From Mytilus galloprovincialis (taxonomy: Eukaryota > Mollusca > Bivalvia > Mytilida > Mytilidae), in the NCBI RefSeq assembly GCF_965363235.1, contig NC_134845.1:64137261-64201260 (forward strand): DNA of 64,000 nucleotides, written 5' to 3'. Positions 1 through 36,489 of this stretch are shown here, one piece after another. How positions within the stretch are numbered: the first letter of the stretch is position 1; each line of letters begins with the position of its first letter. The notes beneath the pieces were generated by a model. It was not told the DNA's origin. It was given only the letters and a program-made list of their open reading frames with translations, and made no database searches. The translations under genes were made by a program, and so were the position numbers.

Positions 1-259
1 TTAAAACACGCTTGTCATATCCTAAGCCTTTAAAAATATGCATTGGAGAATGTGTATTACGAAAATATTTGCCTTTTTGCTTATTATCTATCATATCATA
101 TCATATAGTTTTGTTGTGGTAATATAACGTTAACATGTTATAAAAGTCAGCAACAACAAAAAAAAGAATGCATTGCTATCTTTCTAAAACGTTTCACATA
201 ATTAATCTTACGATTGATTTTAATTTTTTCTTCGAAGAAAAATTACACAAAACTCTTAC

Positions 260-665
260 CTTGAGAACTGCTAAATGACCCTTGTAATTGTTTAATTGTC
301 TGCTCGTGTTGTTGGATCAATGTTTGTTGATGCTGGTTTGATGTCTGTTGTTGATAGATTGATATTTGTTGTTGATTAATTAATGACTGTTGTTGTTGCG
401 TTAACGTCTTCTGTTGTTGGATTGATGTCTGATGTTGCTGAATTGTTTTCTCTTGCTGTTGAATAGTTAACGTCTGTTGTTGATTTTCAATAGATAACTG
501 TTTTACCGTAGCATTTAATATTGCAACAATATTTTCTACTCGGTTCAACCTATTAATTAGTATGTCTTGGTCATCAAGCAATAACCTCTTTTCTTCCAAT
601 TTGACCATATTTACCTTAAAACAGAGAAAAAAATATAAGCAGACAATTCTACTAATCTGTTCCAT
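260..665 (-). CDS. Gene A, exon 1 only: signal peptide plus Gln-rich coiled coil (5' part of a short-chain collagen C4-like gene)
   Basis: This is the first exon of a secreted protein gene whose other exons lie left of the window. The reading frame could start at 710, but the internal ATG at 665 gives a better signal peptide (MEQISRIVCLYFFLCFKVN), and the first residues of the longer frame overlap a conserved upstream block seen in all paralogs. After the signal comes the family motif EEKRLLL, then NRLNRVENIVAILNATVKQL, which carries an N-glycosylation sequon (NAT). About 70 residues follow that are dominated by QQQ at seven-residue spacing, which predicts a coiled coil. The exon ends at 260, followed by a GTAAG donor, leaving one base of a codon, the same phase as genes B to E. 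Membership is clear from alignment to B; the C-terminal domain is inferred, not seen. Confidence 0.8.
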
Positions 666-689
666 GTTAGCTATCACATAATTCAACAC

Positions 690-712
690 AAATTGATTCT
701 TATCATTCAAAA
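690..712 (-). promoter_or_regulatory. Conserved upstream block of gene A (TGATAAG)
   Basis: The minus strand reads TGATAAGAATCAATTTGTG about 35 bp before the chosen ATG at 665. The same block lies upstream of genes B to E. It overlaps the first codons of the longer possible frame, which argues for the start at 665. It could be a GATA-factor site, a core-promoter element or 5' UTR; I infer this from conservation only. Confidence 0.5.
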
Positions 713-719
713 GTCAGAA

Positions 720-978
720 AAGGTCACAAGGTGTCTCAAAATGTTATCATGCGTATGGCAACATATACGTTTGAAATCCCGATGAGTATATGGTGGTCTT
801 GAGTTGTCTTCTATTCTTTTGGCAGGTAGCTGTTTCTTTTCTTTTGGCAGGTTGCTGTTTCTTTAACACATTTCCCGTTACCATACTCTGATTAAATGAC
901 TTATTTTTACCAGCTCATTAATTTTTCATGAATGTTCAAGCAGTTTTGTTAAGAATGTTACGACATTTAAAAACAAAG
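720..978. other. Upstream flank of gene A
   Basis: A+T-rich sequence upstream of the first exon of gene A. The part next to the gene (GAAAAGGTCA near 716-728) resembles the flank of gene D, which suggests the duplicated unit extends past the promoter. No coding signal is seen. Two imperfect copies of TTCTTTTGGCAGGT lie at about 814-854. Confidence 0.4.
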
Positions 979-1194
979 TACTGTGGATTCATTATTATTC
1001 GTTGGAAACCAGTTTTCGTGAGCTTCGTGGATACAAGTGAACCACGAAATCAAATGTTCAACGAATAACACATATTTGCAATTGGCTTTGAATACAGAGA
1101 TTGACAAAACCACGAAATCAAATATCCACAAATGTGCAAGTTTTCAGCAATCAACGAAAATTGATACCAACGAAAATGAATGAATTCACAGTAT
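979..1194. repeat. TIR element of the CTGTGGATTCATT family, copy 1
   Basis: The ends are inverted: CTGTGGATTCATT on the left and AATGAATTCACAG on the right, each next to TA. Internal phrases such as CACGAAATCAAAT recur. Similar copies lie at about 22009-22187 (truncated) and 55616-55837. It is a short non-coding element of MITE type; the transposase family is not visible. Confidence 0.6.
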
Positions 1195-1225
1195 TTGATT
1201 TGCTTAGATTTAAACATATAACCAA

Positions 1226-1400
1226 AAAGTAAAATCACAAAAATACTGAACTTAGAGGAAGATCAATTGGGAAAGTCCATTATCACATGGCAAAATCAAA
1301 TAACAAAACGCATCAAAAACGAATGGACAAAAACTGTCATATTCCTGACTTGGTACAGGCATTTTCAAATGTAGAAAATGGTGGATTAAACAAAAGTCAT
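1226..1400 (-). mobile_element. Fossil retroelement 3' tail fragment
   Basis: On the minus strand this matches the tail that follows the reverse-transcriptase fossil at 3230-4415 (phrases such as AAGTCAGGAATATGACA and TTTTGTGATTTTACTTTTT). It is a fragment of an old copy and has no coding content. Confidence 0.5.
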
Positions 1401-1479
1401 TAAAATATTTTTTAAATAATATATGATAATGCTTAATATTTAGTTCTGGATAAATAAGATGCATTGTTAGTTAGGTTGG

Positions 1480-1985
1480 AGTTGCAAACAACGACCGTAA
1501 TTTTCTAGATTTTAACAACGTGTCACGGTTCCAAAAGCGAATTCGGAATATGCCTTCCCCCGTTTTTAACAGTATCTTTCAAATACAAATAAAAATAAAT
1601 CCTCTCATTTCCTGGTTGATGTACTAAAAACCCTTTTACATTTAAAAATGTCTAAATACGCTGCTGAGTTCTATCATGGGTACTACATGTTGTATTTATA
1701 ATTTAAATCAGACTGTCTTAACCCCTGAAGAAGTTATAATTCGGAAATATGGAGGTATATGAAAAGATGTGTGAGAGGTCTTGTCAATGATACAGGCAGC
1801 TAATTCATAAATAGTCATGACATGTTACCTCGAAATTATAAAACATAATTGAATTCTCGAGCTCGTTCCCTTTTTTTGTAATTGTGATGTTTCTTTTGCA
1901 CAATTTCACTGTATTTGTATACTATTAATCATAACGCGTTCGCTGTACCCGTGTCTGAAGTGACGTATTTGTGATTTAATGAAGG
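1480..1985. other. Unassigned spacer
   Basis: A+T-rich sequence between the gene A flank and the hairpin repeat. I see no open frame, gene-family similarity or clear repeat border in it. Confidence 0.35.
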
Positions 1986-1990
1986 AAATT

Positions 1991-2581
1991 TATTTATCTT
2001 ACCTCCTATACATTTCCAGGAATATGATTGGTTAAAAGCGTCCGCGTGCAAACCGTGTATATTTGATATTAGGTTAGTAGGGAGGCGGGGCTTATCTCAT
2101 ACACGGTTAGTAGTGGAGTTACGTCCCTTTATATTCCTTATTAGGTAAGAAGGGGGCGGGGCTTATTTCATACACAGTTAGTAATTGTGTAATGTCCCTT
2201 TATAAAAAACAAAACGGTACTGAGAAAAAATCTTAAAAATTCGAACAGACGAAGCAATTGATGATTAAGATTGAAACAAATTCATAAAACACATTTAAAC
2301 CTTACAAGTCGTTATTGTTGGCATCTGTTTTTGTAGGATCAATGGAAGTATTTTCTTAGTGCTAACAGTATTGAAGACTTGCTCATTTTGAGAATCACTA
2401 GTCTTACTTTCACACGTTAAGATAGTCGGTAAGATAAATTCGTTTCATGTTGTGCTAGTGACGTAATACGGTATATATGGGGTCAGTAAATTCCATATGG
2501 GGATTCGAGCTTCGCTCTCACCCCATATGGAATTTACTGACCCCATATATACCGTATTAGGTCACTAGCACACTATGTAAC
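1991..2581 (+). repeat. About 590-bp hairpin repeat, copy 1
   Basis: One end is a near-perfect hairpin (about 2451-2581): GTGCTAGTGACGTAATACGG, then GGGGTCAGTAAATTCCATATGG, whose arms return in reverse order and end in CACTATGTAAC. The other end includes two imperfect copies of a block with GGCGGGGCTTAT and CATACAC. The whole unit reappears in reverse orientation at 6060-6654. It is non-coding and looks like a non-autonomous mobile element. Confidence 0.65.
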
Positions 2582-2819
2582 TAATAGTATTAATGGTTAA
2601 TTAATCAGTGATTTCGTTTCCACAAACTTTTTTAAAATATAATCTAAATTCTTCCATATATATCATGTATATATAACGAGTTTATTTCAAAGTTTAACTA
2701 TCCCAGCAGAACAAATATATTTTAGATGGGATGAAACGTCTAAATTTCATAAGCCAAAGACTAGACAAAATAACATATATTTGATATCATTAGTTTTGAA
2801 TTTAGTAATTAAAACATTC

Positions 2820-3120
2820 AGATCCTGCTCGACATGTGGCATCCGTCGTATTACTCATGTACGTACAAACCAAGTGATAAGTCTAATTCTATATGTCACA
2901 TTTGTGGAAAAGGAGAACGGAATTTTGTTTACGTCATTGTTACGTCGTCATCTTTGAAACAGAAAATTCCAAAACAATCAACCACATTTTAACTTGTGAT
3001 GGCGTCGTTTCCGTAAAATTTTTGAAGGGATAATTTTCAACGTTAGTACTAGGAACTCGTTATTAAAATTGCTTTATTGTGAGCAACAATCCTCTTCCAA
3101 TGAAATCATGATAAACAAAT
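2820..3120 (-). mobile_element. Fossil retroelement fragment (tail 2 type)
   Basis: The phrase CTGCTCGACATGTGGCATCC and the bases after it resemble the fragment at 21425-21710, where the same phrases sit beside reverse-transcriptase coding remains. It is an old broken fragment. Confidence 0.45.
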
Positions 3121-3229
3121 CCTGTACTATCGAAAATGATATTTGAATATAAATAACTAAAAACACGACGTGAGGAACAGGGTTCCAACAATGTCTACCA
3201 ACATTTCACTGAAATAAAAAAAATCGTCT

Positions 3230-4415
3230 AAAAGAAATAATCCACCATACTTTTCAATATAAAAATTGTAGCATGCGCTATACATTTATTACTTTGGAAT
3301 ACCATATAGCATATTTTGTTAATAGTGAACAAAAAGGTAAAAGATGTTACACACAGGAACAAGTGATCCGTATGCGTGAGTTTCTTATTGACAACATATT
3401 TGTTGAATTTGCAGGTAGAATTTTTCAACAAATTGTCGGCATTACTATTGGAACGAACTGTGCACATTTCCTTGCGACCTCTTCTTATTTCCATATGAGT
3501 TGGAGTTCCATCAGACACAAAAAAACAAGATGATTAAAAATGTCAGGTAATTTAATTTCACATTTAGATGATTATATTGATAATGTTCTTTCCATTAATA
3601 ATCTTAACTTTTCTTATTGGGTTCTGAGACTATTTTAATTTTGAAACTATTCAATTTCCCCAAACTTATTAACACAATATAAACTTTGCGTGCATATGGG
3701 ATATACATTTCCTAACTTTTTTGTTATTCAGATACTACTCATAATTTGTAAAACGTCACCAATGTCTGAGCAAAAGGTAATAAGCCAGGGGTATGCCAAA
3801 GAACTTATCGTTCTTTTTCTAAAAAAAATCATCGAAAGGTACCAAGACCTTGTTGATAAATATTCCGTATCAACTTCACAAATGACATCCGATGGTCTTA
3901 AAGTATAGATTCTGTGTACTGATGTCATCATAATAACGTGTTAAAATATTCTCTTTGGATGTTACTTTAACTGTTTAGTCAATTTTTGTGATATTCATTT
4001 GACGTGGCTCTGTACTTCATTCCGTCATTGTGTTATTTTGCTATGATATTTTTGTGGATTCTTGTCTTTCATTTTTGCTTACGAGCTTTCTCTATATGCC
4101 AGTTGGTGTCTCTTTGTCACATATTTGTTTGTTTTTATAGTTATTGAGATTATAGCACAATGTTGACTGCTGTACCCATATTGTGACATTTTTACCTGTT
4201 TTGTATTGTTTTGTTCACACATCATTGTCAATATAATGGAATTTTATTAAACTGTCACACAAGTGAGAGGTTTAGCTAGTTATAAACCAGGTTCAAGTCA
4301 CCATTTTTACTTACGAAAATGTCTGTACAAAGTCAGGAATATGACAAGGGACTATGCGTTTTGAATTTTCATTGGAGTTCAATATTTTTGTGACTCTACT
4401 TTTAAAGGATGGTGC
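3230..4415 (+). mobile_element. Fossil reverse-transcriptase retroelement with 3' tail
   Basis: Plus-strand remnants carry reverse-transcriptase-like phrases (about 3345-3530, including a GTNCA motif) and the C-terminal phrase ISQGYAKEL (about 3780). A non-coding tail runs to about 4415, with phrases such as ATGCCAGTTGGTGTCTC and AGCACAATGTTGACTGCTGT that recur at 14665-14935. The copy is broken and old. The family may be Penelope-like; I cannot settle this by eye. Confidence 0.6.
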
Positions 4416-4627
4416 TTTGAAATGACACGTCGTAATCATTAGTTAAATGCCTCAACAATTGTTTCAAAAATAACCTTTTTGTTCCGGTATACGAAAAATA
4501 AATATGGAAGGATCTTATACCGTAATGAGACTTGTTTTCTCGGGGCTCTAATTGTCAAGCTGTGATTCAAAGCATTCATAAAACTAACGAGAAAATAGAT
4601 TTTAATTAATTCTTTTCTTGTCATCTA

Positions 4628-7600
4628 TCACTTAGAACAGACTACACATGTAAGGGGATAATTGTTTATATACGGAGGACATTTCAATGATCCACATTTG
4701 GAAAGAACTTCATAAAACAATTTACCAAGATGCTGATCAACGCCTCCAATAATATATTCTGGGTTGAGCTCAACACATACGTAAGCCGAAGCGGCTGCAT
4801 GACCATGATTCCCTGACGCCAAATATCCATGATACTCCATCGTCCAGCCCTTGTAACATGTATTTTTTCCCGGAATCATAACAACAGATGTGGCACGTTC
4901 TGTTCTACATAGAGCACAAGGTACGTCTTCATCGTTAGCATTGGATGCAAAGAAAGCGTTGTCAAATTCTGCACCGTACATACGTCCAAAATCTGACCCA
5001 CTAGTCTTTACATAATCTGGATCTGGTGGTAAGCATACATATTCAGCAGCTGCACCTGTATCAGTATAGTGACTTCCACCTGCAAAGCCTGTTATAAGAA
5101 TGTAATATTAATATTGAGACATATTGCATTTATATTCTTCAAAAAATGTACGTTATAGTCTTAAATTTGTTAAAATTTATTTGCAATATTGGTGAAATAC
5201 AATATTTTAAAATAAAAATTCTTTCTTTGTCAAGTGAAGACAACTATGTATTCTTTCTTGAAATAACCGTCACTAAGATATACTTTTGATATAAAACGTC
5301 CGATGGAATGTTCTAATAGAGTTATTTAGAATACACATTTTCACTCAAAGTTTGCATATTCAATAGAAAAATTCAACGATAGGAAAAAAGAGGCGGATGA
5401 TAACAAATAAAACATTAACCCTCCTAAGTCGACGATATGACAGTCTGGACTACATATTAGTTTGCAGTGGCGCTTGATTCGTGATTACGGTCGGAAAAAG
5501 ACCATCGACACTTTTTTAGTTCGGACCAGCAAACCGGTTGTCTTATCATTGGGGTAAAACAAAATTAATATTTGATTTTAAATTGTAACACTGACACTTA
5601 TAATCGTAACATATTATATATTTTTTAGAATAACATGATACTGATTTCATTAACATGCTGACTCAACCAGATACTGAGTTCTTAGCAAATGTTCGTCATA
5701 TACAAACTTCATATATAGGATCATAAACTAATTTTATCAAACTACTTCCAGTTGAAAACACAATGTTAACAAGGCACCACAGGAATAAGACTGGCAACTA
5801 CAAGAACCTTAACCGTGCAATCCATCAAATTAACTTCATAATAATATTTACCGGAATATACCAATTCTGTATTATTATTTGGGCACTGCTTTCTTCCCCA
5901 TCGTATATAGGTTGTTCCAAGACCTGAAATGAAGAAACTTATATTCGACGTATTGCAGATAGACCAATGGCAAATATGTTGAAAGATAGATTGTTAAAAC
6001 ATGAAACGGAGGCTCGTTTATCATTATATTGATCTCTAATAACTCGAGTTGATATTATTAGTTACATAGTGTGCTAGTGACATAATACGGTATATATGGG
6101 GTTAGTAAGTTCCATAAGGGGTTAAAGCGAAGCTCGAATCCCCATATGGAATTTACTGACCCCATATATACCGTCTTACGTAACTAGCACACTATGTAAC
6201 GAATTTATCTTACCGACTATCTTAACGTGTAAAATTTAGACTAGTGACCTATCAAAATGAGCAAGTCTTCAATACAGTTAACATTAACATGATTAAGAAA
6301 CTACTTCCTTTGATCCTACAAAAACAGATGCCAACAATGACAATTTGTTAGATTTAAATGTGTTTTATGAATTTATTACACTTTATCATCACTTTCTTCG
6401 TCTGTTGAAACCTTTAAGGTTTTTTCTCAGTACTGTTTTGTTTTTCTAAAGGGACGTTACACCACTACTAACCGTGAATGAAATAAACCCCGCCTCCTTA
6501 TAACCTTAGATGGAATATAAAGGGACGTAACTCCACTACTAACTGTGTATGAAATAAGCCCTGCCTCCCAACTAACCTAATATTGAATATACTCGGCTTC
6601 CACGAGAATGCTGTTAACCAATCATATTCCTAGAAATGTATAGGTAAGATAACAAGCGATATCCTATTCTTACAAGTTGTAAAAACCTATTTCTCTAATG
6701 GTTACAACTCTAATTATGTTAAATAAAAAATTCCAATTATCGTTGATCTAGTCTATACCACATCCTGTTTGATTGCATATGTCATTGTCAGGTGTCAAAC
6801 TTTAACATCAGAAAATTAAGACTTTTAGTGTGCTTCAGATTCTAATAAAATCTAAAAAAAGGAGATTCACTGCATGAAAAGGTTGATTTGGATTACTTTA
6901 CTCATGTAAAGACAAAGATAGGCACTTTGTTACACTATATATCTCAATACCCATTATTTGGTGAATCAATACATGATAAATTTGCATTCGTACACTATAA
7001 ATGCAAAGAAATTGCAAAATTATGCTAATCTTTCCTTAACTTTTAAACAAAGTTGAATGTAAGTAAAGACAACGGTCTTATAAACTTACATTTATAAAGT
7101 ACTGAAACGTATTTAAATGTTAACCTTAATTGGTTGTTTTGTCGTCCGATATAAATAAACGAAAGGCCGCTTTTTACGTTGAATTTACAACATCGTCAAA
7201 CATAAGCAAAGAAGACATTTGTATTTGCGTTCTATTCGCATAGTGTGTTAGATATATGCAAAGGTTTTCCATATATTTGCAAATGTTCATATAGCTTCCG
7301 AAATATATTTTAATATGAATCTCAGCCGTGCTCAGACGAAGACAAAGATATCTATCAATCAGAATTTTGGGGTTTGCATATTCACCGCATATGCATCATC
7401 AACATACTGTAACTAGTAACAACACGGATGTTGGGAAATGACACTGTGAGCTATTCTTTGACTTAAAAATTTTGTTGGCATCTTTTGTAGAATCTCTTCT
7501 TTACGAAAAAAAATCTTACTTGGAATGCTGTTAAATGAGCTTTGCAACTGTTTAATTGTCTGTTCCTGCTGTTGATTTATTGTCTGCTGTTGTTGGATTG

Positions 7601-7931
7601 TTGTCTGCTGTTGTTGGATTAATGCCTGTTGTTGTTGAATTGTTGCCTGTTGCTGCTGGTTGGATATGTTTTGTTGTGTAATCCATGCCTGTTGTTGAAG
7701 GGTTGATATCTGATGTTGCTGAATGGTTTTCTCTTGCTGTTGAATAGTTAACGTCTGCTGTTGATTTTCAGTGGATAGCTGTTTCACTGTGGCATTCAGT
7801 ATTGCAACGATATTTTCTACTCGGTTTAGACGATTAACGAGTACATCTGGATCATTAAGCAATAACCTCTTTTCTTCGGTGGTGACCAAATTAACACTAA
7901 AACAAAAGAAATATATTAACCAAATGATCAT
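4628..7931 (-). CDS. Gene B: secreted coiled-coil protein with short-chain collagen C4-like Cys-rich domain
   Basis: Three exons join in frame with GT-AG borders: 7520-7931, 5852-5923 and 4628-5088 (945 nt, 314 residues plus stop). The signal peptide is MIIWLIYFFCFSVNLVTT. Residues about 25-50 (NRLNRVENIVAILNATVKQL) start a coiled coil with an NAT sequon. Residues about 55-130 are a run of Gln-rich heptads, the longest in the array. Exon 2 gives TTYIRWGRKQCPNNNTEL with a second sequon (NNT). Exon 3 gives YVCLPPDPDYVKTSGSDFG, DVPCALCR, IPGKNTCY, YHGYLASG, YVCVELNPEYI, KCGSLKCPPY and LTCVVCSK, so the domain has ten cysteines counting the one in exon 2. This pattern is that of proteins labelled short-chain collagen C4-like in sponges and bivalves, but there is no Gly-X-Y repeat. 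It is likely extracellular; its ligand is unknown. A hairpin repeat (6060-6654) sits in intron 1. Confidence 0.88.
6060..6654 (-). repeat. About 590-bp hairpin repeat, copy 2 (in intron 1 of gene B)
   Basis: This is the reverse complement of the repeat at 1991-2581. It starts with the hairpin (GTTACATAGTGTGCTAGTGA to about 6200) and ends at the block CCAATCATATTCCT, AAATGTATAGGTAAGATA. The two copies flank the 3' half of gene B in opposite orientation. Confidence 0.65.
6655..7519. other. Rest of intron 1 of gene B
   Basis: A+T-rich intron sequence between the hairpin repeat and exon 1 of gene B. No repeat border or coding signal stands out. Confidence 0.4.
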
Positions 7932-7970: not shown

Positions 7971-7994
7971 TATAAATTATTTCTTATCAATCTA
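7971..7994 (-). promoter_or_regulatory. Conserved upstream block of gene B (TGATAAG) with TATA-like stretch
   Basis: The minus strand reads TTGATAAGAAATAATTTATA. TGATAAG is shared with the four paralogs at 53 bp from the ATG, and a TATA-like ATTTATAT follows it. Which part is promoter and which is 5' UTR cannot be told from sequence alone. Confidence 0.5.
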
Positions 7995-13700: not shown

Positions 13701-14664
13701 TGTATTATTTAGAACAAACTACACACGTCAATGGATAATTGTTGATGTAGGGTGGACATTTTAAAGATCCACATTTGGTAAGAACATCAAAAAACATTTT
13801 ACCCAGATGCTTATTCACACCTCCGATAATATACTCTGGATTGATGTCAACGCATACGTAAGCAGAAGCAGCTGCATGATAATTTGCTCCTGAAGACAAG
13901 TATCCATGATATTCTTCCCTCCAGCCATTGTAACATGTATTCTTACCAGGAATCATTATAACAGATGTCGAAAAAGTAGTTCTGCAAGAAGCGCAAGGGA
14001 CGTCCTGGGCATGTGCATTCGAAGCAAAAAAGTTGCCGTAAAATTCAGCCCCATACATATGCCCATAGTCGGATCCGCTTGTCTTTACATAATTTGGATC
14101 TGGTGGTAAACATACATATTCAGCAGCCGAGCCTGTTTCACCATAGTTACCACCAGCGGCATACCCTGTGAAAACAAACATATACACCAAATCATAACAC
14201 GAATGAATGACTCAGGAAAAGTATAATTTAATAAAAAAAAAATTGAGTCGTTTAAAAAAGTTCAATATTCATTCTTAAATTCCAAGAGGGTTTGACATAT
14301 CTATGACTTTATGGTCAGTTTTCTCCGGAATGTTGCATCATTCTGATGCAATTTTTTTTTATAATTTTCACTCACAAGAGTCGACATTATCATATGCATT
14401 CGAATGAAGACAGTTGCAAAACAAAATCAATAAATAATCGAAGAGTGTGTAAATCAAACTCTTGATTAAGATTGAAAATCTTTGTAAGGCTATCTTTGTT
14501 TAGGGTAGGAAAAATGGTTTTTAATTTAGATTGATTTTAATGTTTCATGAACTGCCATTTGACAGAAATGTAATGCCAGTACTCCTGTGTTAAACTAGGA
14601 GAGAAAACTTAAAATGCAAAGGATACACTAAAACAATCGGATTAAATAAATCTGTTTGTTTTAT

Positions 14665-14935: not shown

Positions 14936-15469
14936 TTGTTATTTACCTTTTATATACCAATTTAAAAAATAACAACAATATGACAAAAATCAACCTTCAA
15001 ATATATCATGTAGAAATTAAAGACAGACTTCCATGTTTGGATAGAACTTTAATCATCGATGCCAAAAAAAGAAGCACCTTAGTATTTTGAATATTGCACA
15101 GCAGGAGAAAAACTTTATAAAATCATATTCTTACAATTTTTAACAGCGATATCATTATTATTTTTTTTAAATATTTACCTGCATAAACCAATTCTGTATT
15201 ATTATTTGGACACTGCTTTCTTCCCCATCTTATTATGTCGTTCCAATACCTGAAAAACAATATATATATATTATATATTACTCGTGCAATGTCAAATACA
15301 CGACTTACGGAAATATTGATAGATTACGTCTACATTATACTTAATTAATGTTCAATTATTATATACTGCATAGGAGAAATAAAGTAAGCTAACAAACAAA
15401 CTTTGAAAGAATATCATGAACTTCAAAAGGGGCGTTTGTGTAAATCCATGTTTCAACTTTGCGCACGCG

Positions 15470-16450
15470 TGTAATCAAACGACAACCATTGAATAACAGG
15501 CTTCTGACTTGGGACATGTATATTCAGAATGTGGCGGAGTAAAATTAGTCAAACATCATGGACAGTTGTGTAATAGTAGTACATAAGAACAGACTATAAA
15601 AATCAGATGAAATGTGCTTAACTGGTAAGATTGATACAGAGCAGAAGCACATCTAACAAAAAAAAGCCAGAGTGGACGTGACAAGATACCTCTACCCCCT
15701 CTCAGCAAAAATACACTAAGTACATATCTGAGAGTACTCGCAGTTACTTACACCTAGTTCAAAGCCAACAACAACTAATAAAAAAATCGTATATCTAAAC
15801 TGAAATATCGATCAGTTCACATCCAACATCCAATGGATTTAGTGTATTACCAGTATGAGAAATATAGTGGTATCGACAGATTTTAGAGACATGAATGTTC
15901 ATATGTACATGTATAACGGTAATTTTTAGTTTAATTTCTAATTTACTTATTATCTAATCAATATCAATACCAATAAAACAATATTTAAAGACCTAATTAA
16001 AGTGTTGAATTTGTAACCTTTCAGAATAAGTTTCATTAAAGGATCGATAAATTTACCCAGATTGTATCTAAATTTCAAAGCTCTGTAAACAACATCTCCA
16101 TTAAAATTACGATACGATATCCCTTTATAAGTACAACCAACTTCCAAAAGAAATCTTTAGATCTAATGCAGAATTTGGTAAAGGTTTTAAGTAATTTGTG
16201 GTATCGAACTCCTTGGCTAAATACTATACAATTTTCATATACATTACGGTAATCGAAATTCAAAATGTCACAACAGACACGGGCAAAGCGAAAGAGTTCA
16301 ATTATATAAACACCGTACGAAATAATCCAATTTGATACGTATTATAGAATATCATAGTGTACAGTTTCCCGTGTAAAGCTGATGTGTCGAAGTCGAGGAA
16401 AGGACAGCTATTCCCGTTTATATTTGATTCACCTTAAGTGGGTTCCTTTC
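15470..16450 (-). mobile_element. Fossil retroelement in intron 1 of gene C
   Basis: On the minus strand, reverse-transcriptase remnants with phrases such as RYHKLLKTFTKF and LIRSLNIV (about 15950-16450) are followed by a tail with CAGATATGTACTTAGTG. Gene D's intron holds a better-preserved relative. The copy is broken, and its upstream part was copied again by the 689-bp tandem duplication. Confidence 0.6.
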
Positions 16451-17483
16451 AATAAATTTCGGCAGTATATTAAAAAAATTCTTGATTATCGATTGCAAAT
16501 ATCATCACGTAACGATAAGTGTTAGCTCGACATTTGACCGCGTTAAAGTTTTGATTAAATGATAGGGTGAATCAAAATCTTTTAGAGAGAATGCACACAA
16601 ATTTAACACATATTAAAGGATGTACATGCTGAGACAAGACATGTTGAACCCAATGAAGGGGATTAAACCGCATTACCAATGTTCTGGCGGAGCTTACGTT
16701 TTAATTTGCATAAGGACAATCTATAAAGAGATGTGTGTGATAAAGATGATGGCCGTTATAATTATAATTATAATTGATTTCTAATCACCTATCAATTACG
16801 ATACGATATCCCTCTATAAATACAACCAACTTCCAAACGAAATCTTTAGATCTAATGCAGAATTTGGTAAATGTTTTAAGTAGTTTGTGGTATCGAACTC
16901 CTTGACTAAATACTATACAATTTTCATATACATTACGGTAATCGAAATTCAAAATGTCACAACAGACACGGGCAAAGCGAAAGAGTTCAATTATATAAAC
17001 ACCGTACGAAATAATCCAATTTGATACGTATTATAGAATATCATAGTGTACAGTTTCCCGTGTAAAGCTGATGTGTCGAAGTCGATGAAAGGACAGCTAT
17101 TCCCGTTTATATTTGATTCACCTTAAGTGAGTTCCTTTTAATAAATTTCGGCAGTATATTAAAATAATTCTTGATTATCGAATGAAAATATCATCACGTA
17201 GCGATAAGTGTTAGCTCGACATTTGACCGCGTTAAAGTTTTGATTAAATGATAGGGTGAATCAAAATCTTTTAGAGAGAATGCACACAAATTTAACACAT
17301 ATTGAAGGATGTACATGCTGAGACAAGACATGTTGAACCCAATGAAGGGGATTAAACCGCATTACCAATGTTCGGGCGGGGCTTACGTTTTAATTTGCAT
17401 AACGACAATCTATAAGAAGATGTGTGTGATAAAGATGATGGCCGTTAAAATTATAATTATAATTGATTTCTAATCACCTATCA
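16106..17483. repeat. Two-copy 689-bp tandem duplication in intron 1 of gene C
   Basis: The segment 16106-16794 is repeated at 16795-17483 with only scattered differences. Each copy begins at ATTACGATACGATATCCCT and ends with TTGATTTCTAATCACCTATC. It includes part of the retroelement fossil and about 350 bp of older intron sequence, so it arose after that insertion. The high similarity suggests it is young. Confidence 0.85.
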
Positions 17484-18041
17484 GTGTAACCGAACGGATA
17501 TACAGTAAACTGAGTGTATGATATAAGCCGAATATAGTAACTTGACACTTCATTGACGATTTTATCCCGAAACACCTGTCTATAGACTTTTCCTAAATAA
17601 GCGAACCGTTTAAACCATGTCAAGTCAAGTGAACTAAATCAAGTCATATGATCATTAAAAAGACCCATAATGATCAGTTTAAGAATATCAAATATATACA
17701 ATACAGTCTTACTTTTAATGCTGTTAAACGAGCTTTGAAGTAGTTTTATTGTCTGTTCCTGTTGTTGGATTGAAGTCTCCTGTTGCTGAATGATTATATC
17801 TTGTTGTTGATTTGTTAATAGCTGTTGGTGGTTTTCAGAAGTTAGCTGCCTAACTGTAGCATTTAGTATCGCCACGACACCTTCCATTCGGTTGAGCCGA
17901 TTATTCATAACATCTAGGTCATTGAGCAATAATCTCTTTTCTTCTGTGGTAACCAGGTCAACCTTAAAACAAAGAAAATATATCAACCACAAAATCATAC
18001 TTGAACGTATCTCATGTGCTTTGAATGAACGATTTGACGCA

Positions 18042-18060
18042 AATTGTTTCTTATCAATCT
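18042..18060 (-). promoter_or_regulatory. Conserved upstream block of gene C (TGATAAG)
   Basis: The minus strand reads TTGATAAGAAACAATTTG, 53 bp before the ATG at 17998. It aligns base for base with the block of gene B apart from a few changes. Confidence 0.5.
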
Positions 18061-24475: not shown

Positions 24476-27400
24476 TTACTTAGAACAGACTACACATGTC
24501 AATGGATAATCGTTAATGTACGGTGGACATTTCAAAGATCCGCATTTGGAAAGAACTTCATAAAACAGTTTACCGTAATGTTGATCAACGCCTCCCATAA
24601 TGTATTCAGGTTGTATGTCAACGCAGACGAAAGCAGAAGCAACGTTTTCAACGTGATGTCCAGAGGCCAAATATCCATGGTATTCCTCTTTCCATCCGCT
24701 GTAACATGTATTCTTCCCAGGAATCATGATCACAGATGAAGCACGAAGAGTTCTACAAAGAGCACATGGGACGTCCTGGTTATCAGAATTGGAAGCAAAA
24801 AAGTTTGAGTCAAATTCTCCACCAAACATACGACCATAATCTGACCCACTAGTCTTTAAATAATTTGGATCTGGTGGTAAGCATACATATTCAGCAGGCG
24901 AACCTGGATCGCTATATTGACCACCACCTGCAAATCCTGTGATTAAAAGAAAGAAAAACTGTGATAATTAAATATGATATGTTTATATGTATATTATGCT
25001 GTTTCGTATCGTAGACTGATTATACTTTCACACGTGTAAATTCAAGTAAAATAAGATTTTCCATATCAAATATGATCAAAGATAAACAGCATATTATTTA
25101 GAACGACCGATTCGCATTTCGTCTACATGATACTAAATAAATCAGTGGGTCTCTATTCAAAGTAGTTTACAGGTGAAATCAATAGTAAAGTTTAAGAGCA
25201 TTTTTAACAATTCAAAAGGATGGAAAACAAACCCTACACATTAAATATACCGATATACTCTGATAAGATATGAACAAGGAAATTATGACTGGCACATTAC
25301 TTAGGAAGCAAGGATAAAATATCTGCGCTACAACAGTAACGAGCTAATGTGGCTACAGTTTTTGTTGAATGCTGTCATTCAAGTAACAACAAAGATTAGA
25401 AACATCACTGCTAAGTTGTATTAATCAAGGAATTGTATATTTATACGATCATTCCTCGTATTGACACACAAAGACATACATTACGGTCTGGATTGGGATA
25501 ACGGAATACAGATCTCGGGCGCTTTAAAAATTATATAGAACTAAATAGTAAAATTCAAAAGAAAATAAGGGGGCTACAATTTATAGAATAGAGAATAATG
25601 GGCAAATGAAATTAAAGAATACAGGAATAATGACCGCCATCAACACACTCAACCATAAGGTAGTATTATCTAAAGTATTGATAGTGAAACCGATGAGGCT
25701 TACCTAACACATGTTACAACCATATCTGAATATTGAGGTCTTGAAACGGAAATTCACAATTCAATCTAACATAAGCATAAAGGGGAATAGCAAGACAAAG
25801 ATATACAATTGTCACTAGAAACCTTCAATGACAGAATACACGTGCAGCTGTTCGGATTGAATATAAGACAAGAGATCTCGTTGGAGTTATTTGATTCTGA
25901 TTTTAATTAATTTTGTATTATGTATTTAAGTCACATTCTTACCTGAGTAAACTAGTTCTGTGCTATTAATTGGACATTGCTTTCTCCCCCATCTAATATA
26001 CGTTGTTCCAATGCCTGGAATATATTTTTTAATTCGGACATTGTAAGCACATAAACAATTATGGCATTCTGCAATTCAACATGAGTTAAGTGTAAAATAC
26101 ACAAATTCGCTGAATAAACGAAAATCCAAACAACTCGTTGTTATAGTGAAATTATGAATTACCACAGACAAAGTTTTAATATAACACGTGTATGGTTTAA
26201 ATCCCTATTATATTAACTGTGAAGAGAAACGTTAAATGCCTTTTCTGTGGTAATATGCATGACACCACAATACAAAGGGCTGATGTTAAAAAGATAAAAC
26301 GGAGAAATAGTGTATATAATATCATTATATCTAAATAGTTAGATGCAGTGTAAAGGACTAGGTCCGGTAAGGACCGATTATGGCCTCAAATTTCAGGTTC
26401 ATCTGACGAAAGATTTTGACCACTTTTTAAACACTTAAGTGTCTATTTCATTTGAATTAATTAGTTTATGTGAAAGATTTTAACAGATTTAGTCATTAAA
26501 AACGATCTGATTCAAGCTCAAATATGAAAAATCTACCTAATATGCCGAAAAATGTCACTTTTCAGATGGTTTTTGGTAAAAATGAAAGTGGCCGCATCCG
26601 TGTTCATCCTCAACCTTTATATATGTTATGTATTATCATAAAATACAACTTACATTGCAATATTAAGGATGAACACGAATGCGGCCACTTTCGTTTTACA
26701 CGAAAACCGTCTAAAATTTAACTAAAATGCTAGAATTATGAGGATTTCAGTAATTTAGCATGACTTCATGGTGCTAGTACCGGATATATGTGCATTGTAT
26801 TGTCAAAAACAGCCCATATTTATGTAGCAGAAGCATTCTACTGTCCAATAAATAACTAAAGAGATATAGGAAGATGTGGTGTGAGTGCCAATGAGACAAC
26901 TCTCCATACAAATAACAATTTAAAAAGTAAACCATTATAGGTTAAAGTACGGCCTTCAACACGGAGCCTTAGCTCACACCGAACAACAAGCTATAAAGGG
27001 CCCCAAAATTACTAGTGTAAAACCATTCAAACGGGAAAACCAACGGTCTAATCTATATAAACAAAACGAGAAACGAGAAACACGTATATATTACATAAAC
27101 AAACGACAACTACTGTACATCAGATTCCTGACTTAGGACAGGTGCAAACATTTGCAGCGGGATTAAACGTTTTAATGGATCCAAACCTTCTCCCTTTTTC
27201 TGAAACAATAGCATAACATCACAACAAAGAAAAACATACGATAAAATATCAATTGGCAGACTTAACTCAATCAAAAAACGTATGATTAAACAATGAACGA
27301 ATAAATTTGATCTGCGATATCTGAATACAAATGCACAGTTAATTAAATATTAGAGACAAACATTCATGACCAAAAAGCTAACAAACAAATTCAAAAACAG

Positions 27401-29193
27401 GACATGACTGAGAAATATTTAACCAATCAATGTTCACTTTAGAAAAAAACCGGTTTTTTTATAATCTTGAAGTTTATACAAATGTTGTAAGAATAAGTGA
27501 AGATATTACAAATAATCAAAGCTGGTGTACAGACAAGATCCGTATAAATAAAACATGACAAAAAAGCATTATAAACAGTATCAACAGTTCGAATTAACAA
27601 GAAAATACGATTTGAGAGTACTCGCAGTTACTGACAGCTAGTTAAAAGCCAAAACCAATTAATAATAAAAAATCATGCATCAGAGACTAAAATCGACTAA
27701 AACACATCACAGGGATTTAGTATTTTAACGTCATTAATAGTCAAAGAAGACATGACTTGTGCAATGCCAAAAATAAATGTATCGACAGGTAGTAGTATAG
27801 TGAAGAGCGACTTCTATAGAAATAAAAGTTAACGTGTCTGTGTCTCTATACATCTCGCCTCAAAAGATAATGAAATTTAGTTATGTTTTAATTTGCTAGT
27901 GACAATATCAATATTAGTGCCAATGTGAACTATATTCAGAGATCTTATTACAATATCGGTACGATAACCCTTACTTATAAGTTTGTTTAAAGGTTCGATG
28001 AGTTTACAAGGATCACATAGTGATTTCCTCGCTTTAAGTACAATATTACCATAAAATTTAGGATGTGAAATACCATTTTTAATAAGCTTTCTACAGGTAT
28101 AGCCAAATTTACTAATCAAATCTTTGTATCTATGAAAGAATTTAGTAAAAGTTTTAAGTAATTTATGGTATCGAAATCCCTGACACAACAATTTACCAGT
28201 GATGCATTGATTACGTTCGTTAAAATCTATGACATCAGAACACACACGGGCAAACCGAACGAGTTGCGATATATAAACACCGTATGATGGAGCCAAAGGC
28301 ACATCGCCGTCTAAAAAAGGAAAATTAACAATAGGAAATGAAAAATCGTCTCTTTTGTCGTAAATTTTAGTGTGAAGTTTCCCGTTTGAAATTGAAATGT
28401 CTAAATCTAGAAAAGGACAACTGTTGCTGTTTATGTTAGATTTAGTTAAAGTAAGTTCGTTTGGGTAAATTTCTGAAGTATATTTAGAGAACTCTGGATT
28501 ATTCAACGAAAAAATATCATCCAGATAACGGTAGGTATTTTTGAATGTATCAACCAAATGTAACAATGATGTTTACATTTTAACAATTTTGTAAAACTGC
28601 TATATTTTGGGGCCAAAAAGGGGTCTTACTGAACCTACTCCTTTTTAATTTTAAATTGATTAATATCGTAATACACGGGTTTATTAAATGAAAGCTTCTT
28701 TTCATGGAGCAACAGGTGAAGACACCTTTTCAAATTACCAATGTATGAACAATATTCCTTAACTGATACAATTTTCAATATCTTTCACTTTTGAAATCTC
28801 GAATTTTTAGCTAAAGACGGTACCTTGCAATCTTTAAAAGAGAAGATAAAAACCATATCTGTTTGTCTTTTAGAGTTGGGATTTTTTTTTATAATCTAGT
28901 TGTCAAATAAAGCGATTTTTAATAAATAGTAAGTTAAAAGAATGAATTATAAACAACATAAAAGTCTTACTTTGAGTAGTGCTAACATAATCTTGTAACT
29001 GTTTAATAGTCTTTTCCTGTTTCTGAATTGTTATTGACTGTTGTTGTACTGTGCTATTGAGTACCGCCACGACACTTTCTAGTCGATTCAACCGATTAAT
29101 CAGTACATCTGGGTCATTCAGCAGTAGCCGCTTCTCTTCTGTGGTGACCAAACTGACCTTTAAACAAAGAAAAAATATAAACCATGCAATCAT
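24476..29193 (-). CDS. Gene D: secreted short coiled-coil protein with short-chain collagen C4-like domain
   Basis: Exons at 28971-29193, 25943-26014 and 24476-24936 join in frame (756 nt, 251 residues plus stop). The open frame extends to 29235, but the ATG at 29193 gives the family-type signal peptide MIAWFIFFLCLKVSLVTT and the usual distance (about 53 bp) from the TGATAAG block. The coiled coil is the shortest of the array: after the NST sequon it has only about four heptads (QQSITIQKQEKTIKQLQ). Exon 2 reads TTYIRWGRKQCPINSTEL, keeping a sequon as NST. Exon 3 keeps every cysteine (YVCLPP, DVPCALCR, KNTCY, FVCVD, KCGSLKCPPY, LTCVVCSK). Intron 1 is unusually long (26015-28970) because it contains a palindromic element itself interrupted by a retroelement. 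Two overlapping AATAAA-like signals lie just past the stop. Confidence 0.87.
26352..28644. mobile_element. Palindromic AAAGGAGTAGGT element in intron 1 of gene D, split by a retroelement
   Basis: The left part (26352-26861) and right part (28572-28644) match, in order, the uninterrupted copy at 63165-63753 read in reverse. The ends are AAAGGACTAGGTCCGG and ACCTACTCCTTT. Near the centre is a hairpin whose arms contain GAAAGTGGCCGCATCCGTGT and its reverse (26581-26700). The element is non-coding. The retroelement at 26862-28571 lies inside it. Confidence 0.75.
26862..28571 (-). mobile_element. Fossil retroelement, 5'-truncated, inserted in a palindromic element
   Basis: The minus strand holds an open reverse-transcriptase portion (27877-28566) with the catalytic YLDDI motif, then CPFLDLDI, KIYDKRDDFSFPIVNF, GVYISQLVRFARVC and FRYHKLLKTFTKFF. 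A roughly 1-kb non-coding tail ends at 26862 (GTTGTCTCATTGGCACTCAC). The part upstream of the YLDDI region is absent, which fits a copy cut short at its 5' end during target-primed integration. The family is a non-LTR type, perhaps Penelope-like. It is the best-preserved copy here but incomplete, and I do not treat it as a host gene. Confidence 0.72.
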
Positions 29194-29232: not shown

Positions 29233-29254
29233 CACACATTGATCCTTATCATTC
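29233..29254 (-). promoter_or_regulatory. Conserved upstream block of gene D (TGATAAG)
   Basis: The minus strand reads ATGATAAGGATCAATGTGTG, 53 bp before the ATG at 29193. The matching spacing supports 29193, not 29235, as the start codon. Confidence 0.5.
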
Positions 29255-31696: not shown

Positions 31697-33163
31697 GGGG
31701 AAATTCCGCGATTTTTTATTTATCATCTTATTATGTTCATCTCAACATAAAAAACACATTTGCAAAGTTTTAAATTAATATTCCTTCTAATAACGGAGAA
31801 AATCAAGTATTTGTAACTTTTTTGGTTGAAAATCTCGAGTGGGTCGTGACGTATCAGCCCGATTTGTTGAATTCTGGGAAAAAATAAAATCTTTTTAATT
31901 CTTATAGCTTATCGACAATTTACGTAATTAAAAGCGCACATCTGACGAATGGTCGTAGTTATTAACCACAATATAAGAATGGACGAAAATGAATATGCGT
32001 ATACCGTTTTGTATTTATTGAATTAAACTTCCTATATAAAACTATCTCTAGTAAATATTTTCGAATAAATTTCATTAATTATTGTTGAGTTTTTATTCAT
32101 AAAATATCTACTTATATTGAACTGAAAATATTTCCGTTCTATTTACCGTTATTATTTTGGTAATCATTTCAATGCAACTTATGTGTGAGCAGAGTGTGTT
32201 AATTATTTTGTAACGGTCACTGTATATTTCTCGGCTTCATGTCAATTCGTTTACCTTGTAGCAATTTAGCCGCAGGTGTGAATTCAAGCGTACACAGGTA
32301 TGAGTGTTGTTATTTGGGATGGATGAACAGAGAGTGTGTGCCATATCTAATACATTAAGATTTAATACGCGATGACAATTAAAATGTATGAACTAATTGA
32401 AAATAAAATTCAGATTCGTATTATAAATTCGGAAAGTTTACAGAATTTAAATTGAAACAATTTTTGATAACGTTTTATGCGGCAATATTCGTAAAGATTC
32501 AAATAAACAGTCAAATAATTATAGTACTTTTAATCTTAAAAAATATTGTTAAATTTATAATTATTAAGGAGATACCATTGCACATGTGTTTAATTTACTT
32601 TACCGAAATTATTTTATTTGTATTGAATCTGCCGATGTATAAATGCTAACAACTGCAAACAATCGCAAAACTTATTTTAAAGTTTTTATTGAAAAAATAT
32701 AATAGCACAATGCCTGCTTTTTATTTTATCTTCTTTTACATAATTTAATACAACTCACAATCACTTCTTACTCACTATAAATAGTTTTCTTTTGATTTAT
32801 CTCTTGTATGAGGTCTTGAATTGTCGTGTTTAAACACATGAAAATGAAAGGAAATAATTTCTATATTCTAATATAATTTAATACTCTAAACTAAAGGATA
32901 GCTGTTATTAATTCCAAATATAGTAATTGTAGTACTTCAAAGCCTAGATGAGTAATGTATTGCTGACAATGACACCAAACATAAGACCAGTTCGACACAT
33001 TGAAACAATGTTTACTTGTATACTTTTCCCGAGGTATAAGCGCCATTGAGGACGAGCTCCAGAGGTTCTTTCTAATGCACAAACTTTTATATTTATGAGA
33101 ATGGGATTTTTTATGCTTAAAGAACAACATATCATTTTTTTATTTTTTTTGCGAAGTTTCCCT
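31697..33163. mobile_element. 1.47-kb element with inverted ends flanked by TTAA
   Basis: The left end GGGGAAATTCCGCGATTTTT and the right end, which on the other strand reads AGGGAAACTTCGCAAAAAAA, are imperfect inverted repeats. TTAA flanks both sides (31693-31696 and 33164-33167). The interior is A+T-rich, with no transposase that I can see. TTAA targets are typical of piggyBac-type transposition, so this may be a non-autonomous relative; the termini themselves are not diagnostic. Confidence 0.55.
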
Positions 33164-33184
33164 TTAAGTTGATTCGACTTTATT

Positions 33185-33320
33185 AAAAACTACCATGACC
33201 AAAAACGTTAACCTAAAGCGGGACAAACGGACGAATGATCGGACACACGGACGGGCGGAAAGAGCAACGAACGAACGGATGCAGAGACTGAAAAACATAA
33301 TGCCACTAGGCGGGGCATAA
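33185..33320. repeat. Common bivalve interspersed repeat (ATAATGCC...GGGGCATAAA type)
   Basis: The sequence contains ACCATGACCAAAAACGTTAA, GGACAAACGGACGAATG and CATAATGCCACTAGGCGGGG. This is related to the repeat at 29690-29955 read from the other strand (its GGACGGACG-type start). Non-coding. Confidence 0.5.
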
Positions 33321-33639
33321 AAAGAAAATATTTATGACGGACGTCCGACATCAACCAAAGACAATAAAAAAAAATAACCAGCTCCAGACTTGGAACAGGC
33401 ACTTGCATACTATATATTAATATAGGATCTTGCGAGTAAAAACTGATTTTGAGTGCTCTACCATGCAATAAAACATGAGAGCAAACTGCGAAAACACTGT
33501 CCACGGATCCAAATTGATAATGGGGTTGAGGTCTAAAAGACAGACATGTCAAATTTCACTTTTTTTCTATGATTATTCTGTATTTATTCAAGTTTAATTT
33601 ATTTAAAACTTTTAAAGTTGACTTCTGCTGTAATTAATT

Positions 33640-33955
33640 ATTTCCTGTCGATGTCGGAGGAGACGTTAATAAGATGGGAACGGAACGTCACCATCTAAAA
33701 ATAGATAATTAACAATATAAGAAATGAAAAGTCGTCTCTTTTATCATATATTTTAGTATTAAGCTACCCGTTTAAGATATAGATATCAAGATCCAGGAAA
33801 GGGCAGTGTTCATTGTTAGTATATGCTTTATTTAAAGTCAATTCGGCAGGATAAATCTCTTTAGTGTACATTCCAAAGTCGTCATTATTGAAAAATGAGT
33901 GATGCCCTCGTCTTAAGGAAATGGAGCATAAAGTGTTACATTTGACATCCACATT
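33640..33955 (-). mobile_element. Fossil reverse-transcriptase fragment
   Basis: The minus strand shows YTKEIYPAELTLNKAY and CPFLDLDIYILNG, matching the fossil in intron 1 of gene D (27877-28566). It is a broken fragment near the 3' end of gene E. Confidence 0.6.
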
Positions 33956-34262
33956 TCCGCATGTCCGTCACATATTTGCTTTCCCACTCTCAATAAAGTT
34001 TTCCTCGTCCAAATCTGAAAACTGCAACATGCAGACAGAGTTCGACTTTTAAGTAGAAAAATTGAAAGCTTGAGCGAGGGCATTCGTTTCCGTAGACACA
34101 TTTTTCTGTTGTTTTATGACATTTTGCTTTTTTGTATTCGTGAAATTTGAGATGAAGTCTTTTCTTGCTAAATTTTATTTCTGTGCATTCGGTAGTGAAG
34201 AGGAAAGTTGAAATAAATAAGTAACACAAAAACATAATCTTATTTTTTTCTTAGTTTTATGT

Positions 34263-36297
34263 TTACTTAGAACAAACTACGCAAGTCAGAGGGTAGTTGT
34301 TCTTGTATGGTGGACACTTCAAAGAACCGCATTTGGTAAGAACTCCAAAAAGAAGTTTACCAAAATGTCGATCCACGCCTCCTATAATATACTCTGGTTT
34401 TATATCAACGCATGCGTACGTTGAAGCAGCTTGATTACCAATAGCTCCTGACGCCAAATATCCATGGTATTCAACCTTCCATCCACTGTAACACGTGTTC
34501 TTCCCTGGGATCATTATAGCTGTGTTAGCATGATTTGTACGACAAAGAGCACAAGGGACGTCTTCATTTGCAGCGTCATCAGCAAAGAAATTAGTGTAAA
34601 ATTCTGCTCCGTACATTCGGCCATGATCCTCGCCACTAGTCTTAACGTAGTTTGGGTCTGGTGGTAGACATACGTGTTCGACAGCCGCACCTATTTCGTT
34701 GTAATGTCCCCCACCTGCATAACCTAAAGGAAACAGACAAAATATTTGCTATTCAAATATGCATTGTACATTTACCATTCAGCTCAACTCTGGTTTTGTG
34801 CATCATATTTTACAAGTTTAATCAAACTTACATATTTTGGCAAATGTTTTAAATTTCAAAAAATCAGAAGAAATTTTTTTCTGAGAAACCGTCATTATCA
34901 GAATGCTTGATTTTTTTATTGACAACATATGTAATACGTTTAGAGAACGTGTTTTTCAACAAATAATCGGCATACCCATGGGAACCAACTGTGCCCCTTG
35001 TGTCAACTTGGTCCTTCAGTCATATCAGTCTGACTTCATACGGAAACATATTGAGAAGAAAGAAAGGAAGTAATCAGTATCCTTTAACATTAATTTCCGC
35101 TATATATAATTTATGTTATCTCTCTCTAAAAAAAATTTAAAAATTGGTGATTAGACTGAACGCATCTATTCCATCGAAATCCCGTCCTCATGTCCCAGAA
35201 TGTGACCTACCAAATAAGACTTATCATCGGGTTTGATGAGAAACTCGATGGGTGCCACTTGTGGGGAAGTATATGCTTACCCTTCTGGAGATCCGGAGAT
35301 CACCCCAGTCATTAAGGGGTTTCTTGTTGCTCAGTCTTGAGTTATTTTCTTTGTTGTGTTTCATGTACTTTTGTATGTCTATTGGTGTTTTTTTCTTTCT
35401 TTTTTAGACATGGCGTACTCAGTTTATTTTCGACTTATGAGTATGAATGTTCCATTGGTATATTTCACTTCTCTCTTTTGGATATAAACTTTTTATGTGC
35501 GCTTTTTAAATGGGACTCGCAAGAGGTATCTTTCCTTTGACTAAAAGATAAGTTGCATAGCAAATCTATAGTATACCTGAATAAACAAGTTCTGTATTAT
35601 TATGTGGGCACTGTTTTCTTCCCCATATAATGTACGTTGCTCCAGAATCTAAAAAGTAGACACGACTTTTATTATGACCAGTTTCTAATACCCATATAGG
35701 TACAGACAAGTATACACTGAAATGAAATATCCTTGTACATATTCCGTATAAATAAACATTTGAGAAGCTTCATGGCAAAAGAAAAATCATGGAGATGGCG
35801 TATGGTATGATTGCCAATAAATTGAATGAATTAACTAGTCGAAAAGCTACATCTCACTTTAAAATATAAGTCGATGACATATATGCTATGATTGCCAATA
35901 AGACAACAATATATATGTACTAGAGGCCAAGGACAAGGATGAAAACAAACTCAAAATCTCCATACCTAGCTGTATAGAATGTATACATACGCAGGTATGT
36001 CGTGCATATTTAAAGAAGAAAGTACAATAATAATTATGATATAATGGTCTTACTTTGGACACTGTTCAATGAACTTTGTAGTTGTTGAATAGTTTTTTCC
36101 TGTTGTATGATAGTTGACGCCTGTTGTTGGTTTTCTGTTTTAAGTTGGACAACCGTACTATTTAGAACAGTCACGACACTTTCAAGTCGGTTCAATCGAT
36201 TCACTAGTACATCTGGGTCATTGAGCAATAGCCTCTTATCTTCAGTATAAACAATGTTTCCCCTTACACAGAGAAAATATATCAACAAGAGAATCAT
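34263..36297 (-). CDS. Gene E: secreted coiled-coil protein with short-chain collagen C4-like domain
   Basis: Exons at 36054-36297, 35577-35648 and 34263-34723 join in frame (777 nt, 258 residues plus stop). The signal peptide is MILLLIYFLCVRGNIVYT, followed by EDKRLLLNDPDVLVNRLNR, an NST sequon and about five heptads with Gln-rich faces. Exon 2 reads ATTYIIWGRKQCPHNNTEL: the Arg of the family motif YIRWGRK is Ile here, and exon 2 starts with Asp-Ser-Gly-Ala instead of Leu/Ile-Gly-Thr. Exon 3 has the full cysteine set, with DVPCALCR, IPGKNTCY, YACVD, KCGSLKCPPY and LTCVVCSK. It is the most compact gene and the last recognisable copy on the right. Intron 2 holds a retroelement fossil (about 34895-35480). 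The function is not known beyond secretion and probable oligomerisation. Confidence 0.88.
34895..35480 (+). mobile_element. Fossil retroelement in intron 2 of gene E
   Basis: Plus-strand phrases FQQIIGIPMGTNCAPC (about 34950-35005) belong to the reverse-transcriptase core. Tail 2 follows at 35225-35480 (GGGTGCCACTTGTGG, TACCCTTCTGGAGATCCGGA and TTAGACATGGCGTACTCAG). It is inserted opposite to gene E. Old and broken. Confidence 0.65.
35785..35920. mobile_element. Retroelement tail-end fragments in intron 1 of gene E
   Basis: Two short pieces, GGTATGATTGCCAATAAATT and CTATGATTGCCAATAAGACA, both resemble the terminal bases of retroelement tail 1. They may be two small insertions or a local duplication. 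Confidence 0.35.
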
Positions 36298-36337
36298 TGC
36301 AATATGTGCACTTTTTCACTCGTGAATAATAATTTGA

Positions 36338-36359
36338 CACGACTTGATTCTTATCTTTT
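36338..36359 (-). promoter_or_regulatory. Conserved upstream block of gene E (AGATAAG)
   Basis: The minus strand reads AAGATAAGAATCAAGTCGTG, 54 bp before the ATG at 36297. The core GATAAGAATCAA equals that of gene A. Confidence 0.5.
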
Positions 36360-36489
36360 AAGGGCTTGTCTTGTGATCAGTGTAAGTTTGTTTCGAATAA
36401 TAATGTGTACAATAGGCCGTTAGTTTTATCGTTTAAATTGTTTTACATTTATCATTTTGAGATCTTTTATATCTGACTCTGGTAATGGT

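Follow-up and report, generated by a model that had tools for sequence, protein, structure and literature searches.

The NC1 domain of spongin short-chain collagens carries seven cysteines common with collagen IV and three of its own, and lacks the HSQ motif, as described in the available part of PMC5395295. In bivalves, collagen tails are extremely rare among the C1q proteins and coiled coils seem to serve instead; in the eastern oyster, tandem duplication involves 297 C1qDC genes (62.39%) (both statements from the available part of PMC6835236). Here we describe a tandem gene family in a 64,000-nt stretch of the Mytilus galloprovincialis genome (NCBI RefSeq assembly GCF_965363235.1, contig NC_134845.1, positions 64,137,261 to 64,201,260 of the forward strand), hereafter referred to as the window, the first part of which contains five gene copies designated A to E. 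A first-pass annotation of this DNA, made from the letters alone, had considered the array to encode secreted proteins with a coiled-coil stem and a cysteine-rich head resembling proteins labelled short-chain collagen C4-like.

We consider it probable that the family encodes a small secreted trimeric binder or cross-linker consisting of a coiled-coil rod and a head of the spongin/collagen IV NC1 type. Exon 1 would provide a signal-peptide-like start and the coiled-coil rod, and the ten-cysteine head, of the spongin short-chain-collagen or collagen IV NC1 type, would come from exons 2 and 3. Three chains would zip together in parallel via the R-h-x-x-h-E motif of the rod, so that the trimer would carry at one of its ends three heads locked by disulphides, with the rod setting the distance. 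Such a trimer may serve outside the cell as a multivalent binder or cross-linker, with the coiled coil in place of the collagen rod of true spongins, and the gain or loss of whole heptads would change the reach of the molecule while keeping its register.

The exon coordinates were deduced from splice sites and open frames, and the stems of exon 1 were additionally delimited by the heptad register. The exons are as follows.

Copy A exon 1, 36054..36297, minus strand, hydrophobic signal-peptide-like start and 61-residue stem (splice model, heptad register)
Copy A exon 2, 35577..35648, minus strand, 72 nt, start of the head with the first cysteine (splice model)
Copy A exon 3, 34263..34723, minus strand, 461 nt, remainder of the head with nine cysteines (splice model)
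Copy B exon 1, 28971..29193, minus strand, 54-residue stem (splice model, heptad register)
Copy B exon 2, 25943..26014, minus strand, 72 nt (splice model)
Copy B exon 3, 24476..24936, minus strand, 461 nt (splice model)
Copy C exon 1, 17713..17998, minus strand, 75-residue stem, frame open (splice model, heptad register)
Copy C exon 2, 15179..15249, minus strand, 71 nt, reading frame interrupted (either a pseudogene or an assembly error)
Copy C exon 3, 13705..14165, minus strand, 461 nt, frame open (splice model)
Copy D exon 1, 7520..7931, minus strand, 117-residue stem with 21-nt tandem repeats (splice model, heptad register)
Copy D exon 2, 5852..5923, minus strand, 72 nt (splice model)
Copy D exon 3, 4628..5088, minus strand, 461 nt (splice model)
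Copy E exon 1, 260..665, minus strand, 110-residue stem with 21-nt tandem repeats (splice model, heptad register)

Copies A to D are three-exon genes arranged head-to-tail, all on the minus strand like copy E, which agrees with the same-strand tandem array proposed earlier, and the spacing from the stop codon of one copy to the ATG of the next ranges from 3963 to 6478 nt. The single three-exon plan ascribed to all five copies holds for these four, while copy E is represented by exon 1 alone because the window ends inside its first intron, and the later exons would fall outside. The nearly identical lengths of exons 2 and 3 were likewise found with a single exception: exon 3 measures 461 nt in all four copies and exon 2 measures 72 nt in A, B and D (3/4), with 71 nt in C. 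The introns are bounded by GT/AG splice sites, and exons 1 and 2 each end in phase 1 in the intact copies A, B and D, so that the identical phases noted in the first-pass annotation apply to these three, the frame of C being broken.

The similarity between the copies is far above chance as judged by tblastn. Exon-1 peptides matched the other copies in 20/20 pairs (E values from 8e-31 to 8e-19), exon-2 peptides in 9/9 pairs (2e-11 to 5e-8, with the exon 2 of C used as a target only) and exon-3 peptides in 12/12 pairs (9e-83 to 3e-74, 70–77% identity), with no cross-matches between different exon types among the copies. When 12 of the 13 exon peptides (all except exon 2 of C) were searched against the window, no extra copies or fragments were found at E values below 0.47, and the seven matches lying beyond the 13 exons all had E values of 0.47–1.0.

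Counted from the shared KRLLL up to the last residue of exon 1, the stem is 61, 54, 75, 117 and 110 residues long in copies A to E, respectively, and all the length differences among the five copies are multiples of seven. For the four independent differences the probability of this is (1/7)^4, or about 0.0004, if in-frame lengths are free to vary, a value which serves as a rough guide given the relatedness of the copies and the 21-nt tandem repeats present in D and E. A single heptad register spans each stem without a stutter, placing hydrophobic residues at position a in 6/9, 6/8, 8/11, 11/17 and 11/16 cases and at position d in 7/9, 5/8, 7/11, 7/17 and 6/16 cases (A to E). All five stems show a hydrophobic periodicity of 3.5 residues, with p values of 0.002, 0.0096, 0.0008, 0.0034 and 0.0014 for A to E (5000 shuffles each). 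An AlphaFold2 model of a single chain of the D exon-1 peptide, built with the five aligned exon-1 peptides as input, contains predicted helices over residues 28–134 and 2–25 with a mean pLDDT of 87.9; this model favours a helix and says nothing for the oligomer. The register, the periodicity and the predicted helix bear out the coiled-coil stem of the first-pass annotation, and its lack of a collagen rod also stands, as no Gly-X-Y runs of at least four triplets were detected in the six frames of the whole 64 kb including introns, with zero to one glycine per stem.

In all the stems, R-h-x-x-h-E occupies residues 14–19 with the first h at position a, giving the register g-a-x-x-d-e; the letters are RLNRLE in A and B, RLNRVE in D and E and RLNRME in C. 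In the available part of PMC3653964 the trimer motif is defined as Arg(g)-h(a)-x-x-h(d)-Glu(e), where the residue at d is Leu, Ile or Val. Its strict form is therefore present in 4/5 stems and the relaxed form, which admits the Met at d of copy C, in 5/5, and the relaxed motif occurred anywhere in only 131–414 of 20,000 shuffles, depending on the stem. As the motif stands at the right register, a parallel trimer is the likeliest state of the stem, in agreement with the trimeric or higher-order stem previously thought probable. We regard the change of stem length in whole heptads with the relaxed trimer motif kept in 5/5 copies as the most interesting point of the locus. A sequon (NST or NAT) at stem residue 26 is also common to all five copies. 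In a 32-codon core of exon 1, the ten pairwise comparisons gave dN values of 0.07–0.25 and dS values of 0.78–3.75.

Coding 21-nt tandem repeats, the unit of which equals one heptad, are located in exon 1 of D (7566–7655) and of E (320–484). Slippage of such a minisatellite could alter the rod length while keeping both the frame and the register. Each of the five copies starts with a hydrophobic N-terminal segment (best ten-residue hydropathy mean of 2.6–3.2), suggesting that the proteins are probably secreted, and together with this start the stem-plus-head layout described at first reading is borne out.

The head encoded by exons 2 and 3 is 176 residues long and contains ten cysteines in identical places in all three intact heads (A, B and D). 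The nine cysteines of exon 3 are also retained in C. The two halves of the head resemble each other, with 16 (A), 2 (B) and 0 (D) of 2000 shuffles reaching a score as high, and each half is closed by CxxC, an organisation described for both spongin and collagen IV NC1. No HSQ motif was seen on reading the head sequences. With ten cysteines and no HSQ, the head fits the spongin-type description given in the available part of PMC5395295. A placement of the cysteines by eye assigns eight of them to collagen IV positions and leaves two as the head's own, versus seven and three in the available part of that paper.

The head and the collagen IV NC1 were also compared half by half in profile alignments with 60 shuffles per comparison. 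The matched first halves gave a Z value of 1.9 (4/60 shuffles as high) and the matched second halves 3.1 (0/60), whereas the crossed halves gave –0.4 (36/60) and 1.4 (6/60). The pattern favours the matched halves, and we regard a relation between the head and the collagen IV NC1 as likely, although the direct similarity is weak.

Several results weigh against an NC1-type head on a trimeric coiled coil. When the cysteines were held fixed, 2/60 shuffles equalled each of the two matched-half scores, and the entire head aligned to either NC1 half gave Z values of only 1.7 and 1.5. The similarity between the head and collagen IV NC1 was not significant in hhalign (P value of 0.14, probability of 0.4 percent), and a profile search of the PDB with the head returned no matches up to an E value of 10. 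No Pfam family was found for the A head. The AlphaFold2 model of exon 3 built from four sequences had a mean pLDDT of 28.3 and is unusable for the fold. As for the rod, the later heptads of D and E often have Ile at a and mostly Gln at d, which would give a polar core. In the remaining Pfam searches, exon 3 of C had one weak chance-like match (E value of 0.37), and the full A and D proteins matched seven and three families, respectively, with E values of 0.005–0.52, all of them under the curated cut-offs. A search for relatives in viral and prokaryote contigs gave 38 and 14 pattern matches, respectively, none of which was confirmed.

The six pairwise comparisons of exon 3 gave dN/dS values of 0.156, 0.098, 0.128, 0.225, 0.191 and 0.135 at dS values of 0.75–1.86, to be read with the caveats that dS is high, that four copies are compared and that YN00, the second method, gave values for 3/6 pairs only. 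The amino-acid difference between the copies in exon 3 is 23–30%. On these values the copies look old and constrained, with purifying selection on the heads. The variable residues of exon 3 are clustered (lag-1 autocorrelation of 0.25, p = 0.001), the most variable being 93–98, 63–68, 5–10 and 48–53, with a p value of 0.07 for the best six-residue window. This clustering would allow for a small number of variable loops and is not evidence of positive selection.

The decaying copy mentioned in the first-pass annotation corresponds to C, in which the 71-nt exon 2 lacks one base near 15229–15238 and runs into stop codons immediately after. The splice sites of C are intact, and the frame is open in both its exon 1 and its exon 3. 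Among the exon-3 codon changes found in C alone, 11 are synonymous and 2 non-synonymous (for the changes private to the other copies, 12 and 6 in A, 4 and 2 in B, 9 and 0 in D). These intact parts and the mostly synonymous private changes imply that the break is either recent or an artefact of assembly.

Another explanation is a diversifying immune recognition family with heads selected for variety; the first-pass annotation had likened the layout to that of diversifying recognition or adhesive protein families. A tandem array with a broken copy, the clusters of variable residues, such as 93–98 and 63–68 of exon 3, and the parallel with the tandem expansion of bivalve C1q genes (available part of PMC6835236) would all suit it. 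We nevertheless find it quite unlikely, because dN/dS is 0.10–0.23 in all six head pairs, even the best variable window reaches only the p value given above, and the window holds no near-identical recent copies, exon 3 being at most 77% identical. The same dN/dS values do not support overall diversifying selection on the heads, and together with the invariant cysteines they do not support diversification as the driver of the family; the test for positive selection that had been suggested for the heads returned an overall purifying signal. That the array is mostly a relic of broken or silent copies is very unlikely: the broken frame in exon 2 of C and the many dispersed repeats of the region are in keeping with it, and against it the frames of A, B and D are intact and the private exon-3 changes are mostly synonymous, even in C (11 versus 2).

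A plausible, though not favoured, reading is that of a structural matrix or mucus protein, the trimers of which would cross-link head to head like collagen IV NC1 and form a secreted network (gill mucus, byssus or shell matrix) with no non-self recognition. It would be consistent with the purifying selection on the heads and with the fit of the head to a family known in the extracellular matrix (available part of PMC5395295). Expression reports point the same way: in the available parts of the respective papers, 'short-chain collagen C4' ranks with the top transcripts of the gill in M. galloprovincialis (1423 reads in the gill non-shared list and a fold change of 1,235 in the gill list; PMC4581086), is up in the Exaiptasia pedal disc (PMC6626399) and is assigned to shell biomineralization in a study of oyster gills (PMC12040131). 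The label also appears in Pinna and Pinctada papers. In all of these, however, 'short-chain collagen C4' is a family label which is not tied to the genes of the array. The absence of a Gly-X-Y rod also speaks against a matrix protein, and the 23–30% difference in exon 3 seems too much for a bulk structural repeat. The secreted trimeric binder or cross-linker remains our preferred explanation.

If that explanation is true, the spongin/NC1 head, which is normally regarded as capping the end of a collagen, operates here on a trimeric rod that is not a collagen, an exchange that would match the one in the bivalve C1q proteins. The array also offers natural rods of 54 to 117 residues bearing similar heads, which allows a direct test of how reach affects binding or the formation of a network. 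A more far-reaching and rather unlikely proposal, which we put forward tentatively, is that the stem exon, with a signal peptide, a coiled coil and a phase-1 intron at its end, is a module that can move between genes and that took the place of the collagen rod in an ancient spongin-type protein through exon shuffling, in parallel to the replacement of collagen by coiled coils in the bivalve C1q proteins. In that case the locus would represent a so far unrecognised class of trimeric NC1-headed proteins free of collagen and acting as soluble multivalent binders, the reach of which would be tuned in whole-heptad steps via the 21-nt coding repeat. No description of coiled-coil-stemmed spongin-type proteins was found in the titles and abstract openings searched, which is a weak negative as subscription journals mostly lie outside their coverage.

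Upstream of the ATG, each of the five copies has a GATAAG element in one and the same position of the alignment.

Copy A, 36350..36355, minus strand, GATAAG, 58 nt before the ATG (upstream alignment)
Copy B, 29245–29250, minus strand, GATAAG
Copy C, 18050–18055, minus strand, GATAAG
Copy D, 7983–7988, minus strand, GATAAG
Copy E, 699–704, minus strand, GATAAG

The distance from GATAAG to the ATG is 57–58 nt in A to D and 39 nt in E, the ATG of which is earlier. The window contains 35 GATAAG sequences on both strands including these five, or about 0.27 per kb per strand. The element may be a site for a GATA factor or a piece of a conserved 5′ leader. In invertebrates, GATA sites are linked to gut and blood-cell expression.

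The window is rich in dispersed repeats, in which GCCAATGAGACAACTCTCCA is seen, a sequence known from Mytilus. Two direct repeats of 300 nt (16105–16404 and 16794–17093) are 98% alike and lie 689 nt apart, with a related stretch at 28106–28287 which is spanned by a 231-codon open frame (27877–28572) with no Pfam match. To our impression only, the direct repeats and this frame look like remnants of a reverse-transcribing element. Three inverted repeat pairs with 79–94% complementarity (2005–2593/6049–6644, 38829–39017/39461–39649 and 26361–26853/63247–63739) are probably mobile elements. The region 38482–38731 consists of pyrimidine-rich low-complexity tandem repeats and contains spurious open frames. 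At an E value of 0.01, Pfam gave no match to any of ten open frames from the 3–55 kb interval, five of which lie in the region 37000–64000, where no recognisable gene and no exon of the family were found and which is possibly intergenic or a long intron.

Among the closest known systems are the spongin short-chain collagens (SSCC; 'short-chain collagen C4', CAS4_EPHMU), compared here by published description rather than by alignment, which possess a ten-cysteine NC1-like C-terminal head without HSQ, as here (available part of PMC5395295). They differ in having a Gly-X-Y rod, in place of which the proteins of the array have a heptad coiled coil. Collagen IV NC1 likewise consists of two tandem halves, each closing in CxxC, and its halves align better with the matched than with the crossed halves of the head; it differs in having twelve cysteines in about 229 residues, versus ten in 176 here, and the array heads are unlike it in having neither HSQ nor collagen and no significant hhalign similarity. 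On these comparisons the proteins are best filed as short-chain-collagen-like with another rod and not as collagens, the family tie of the head being a candidate one. With the bivalve C1q-like proteins of type II they have in common secretion, here a predicted one, a coiled coil replacing collagen and tandem same-strand expansion (available part of PMC6835236), the difference being that no Pfam C1q match was obtained up to an E value of 1 with full A, full D, the A head or exon 3 of C. Our best reading, by analogy, is that the array encodes a putative spongin-type counterpart of the bivalve coiled-coil C1q proteins.

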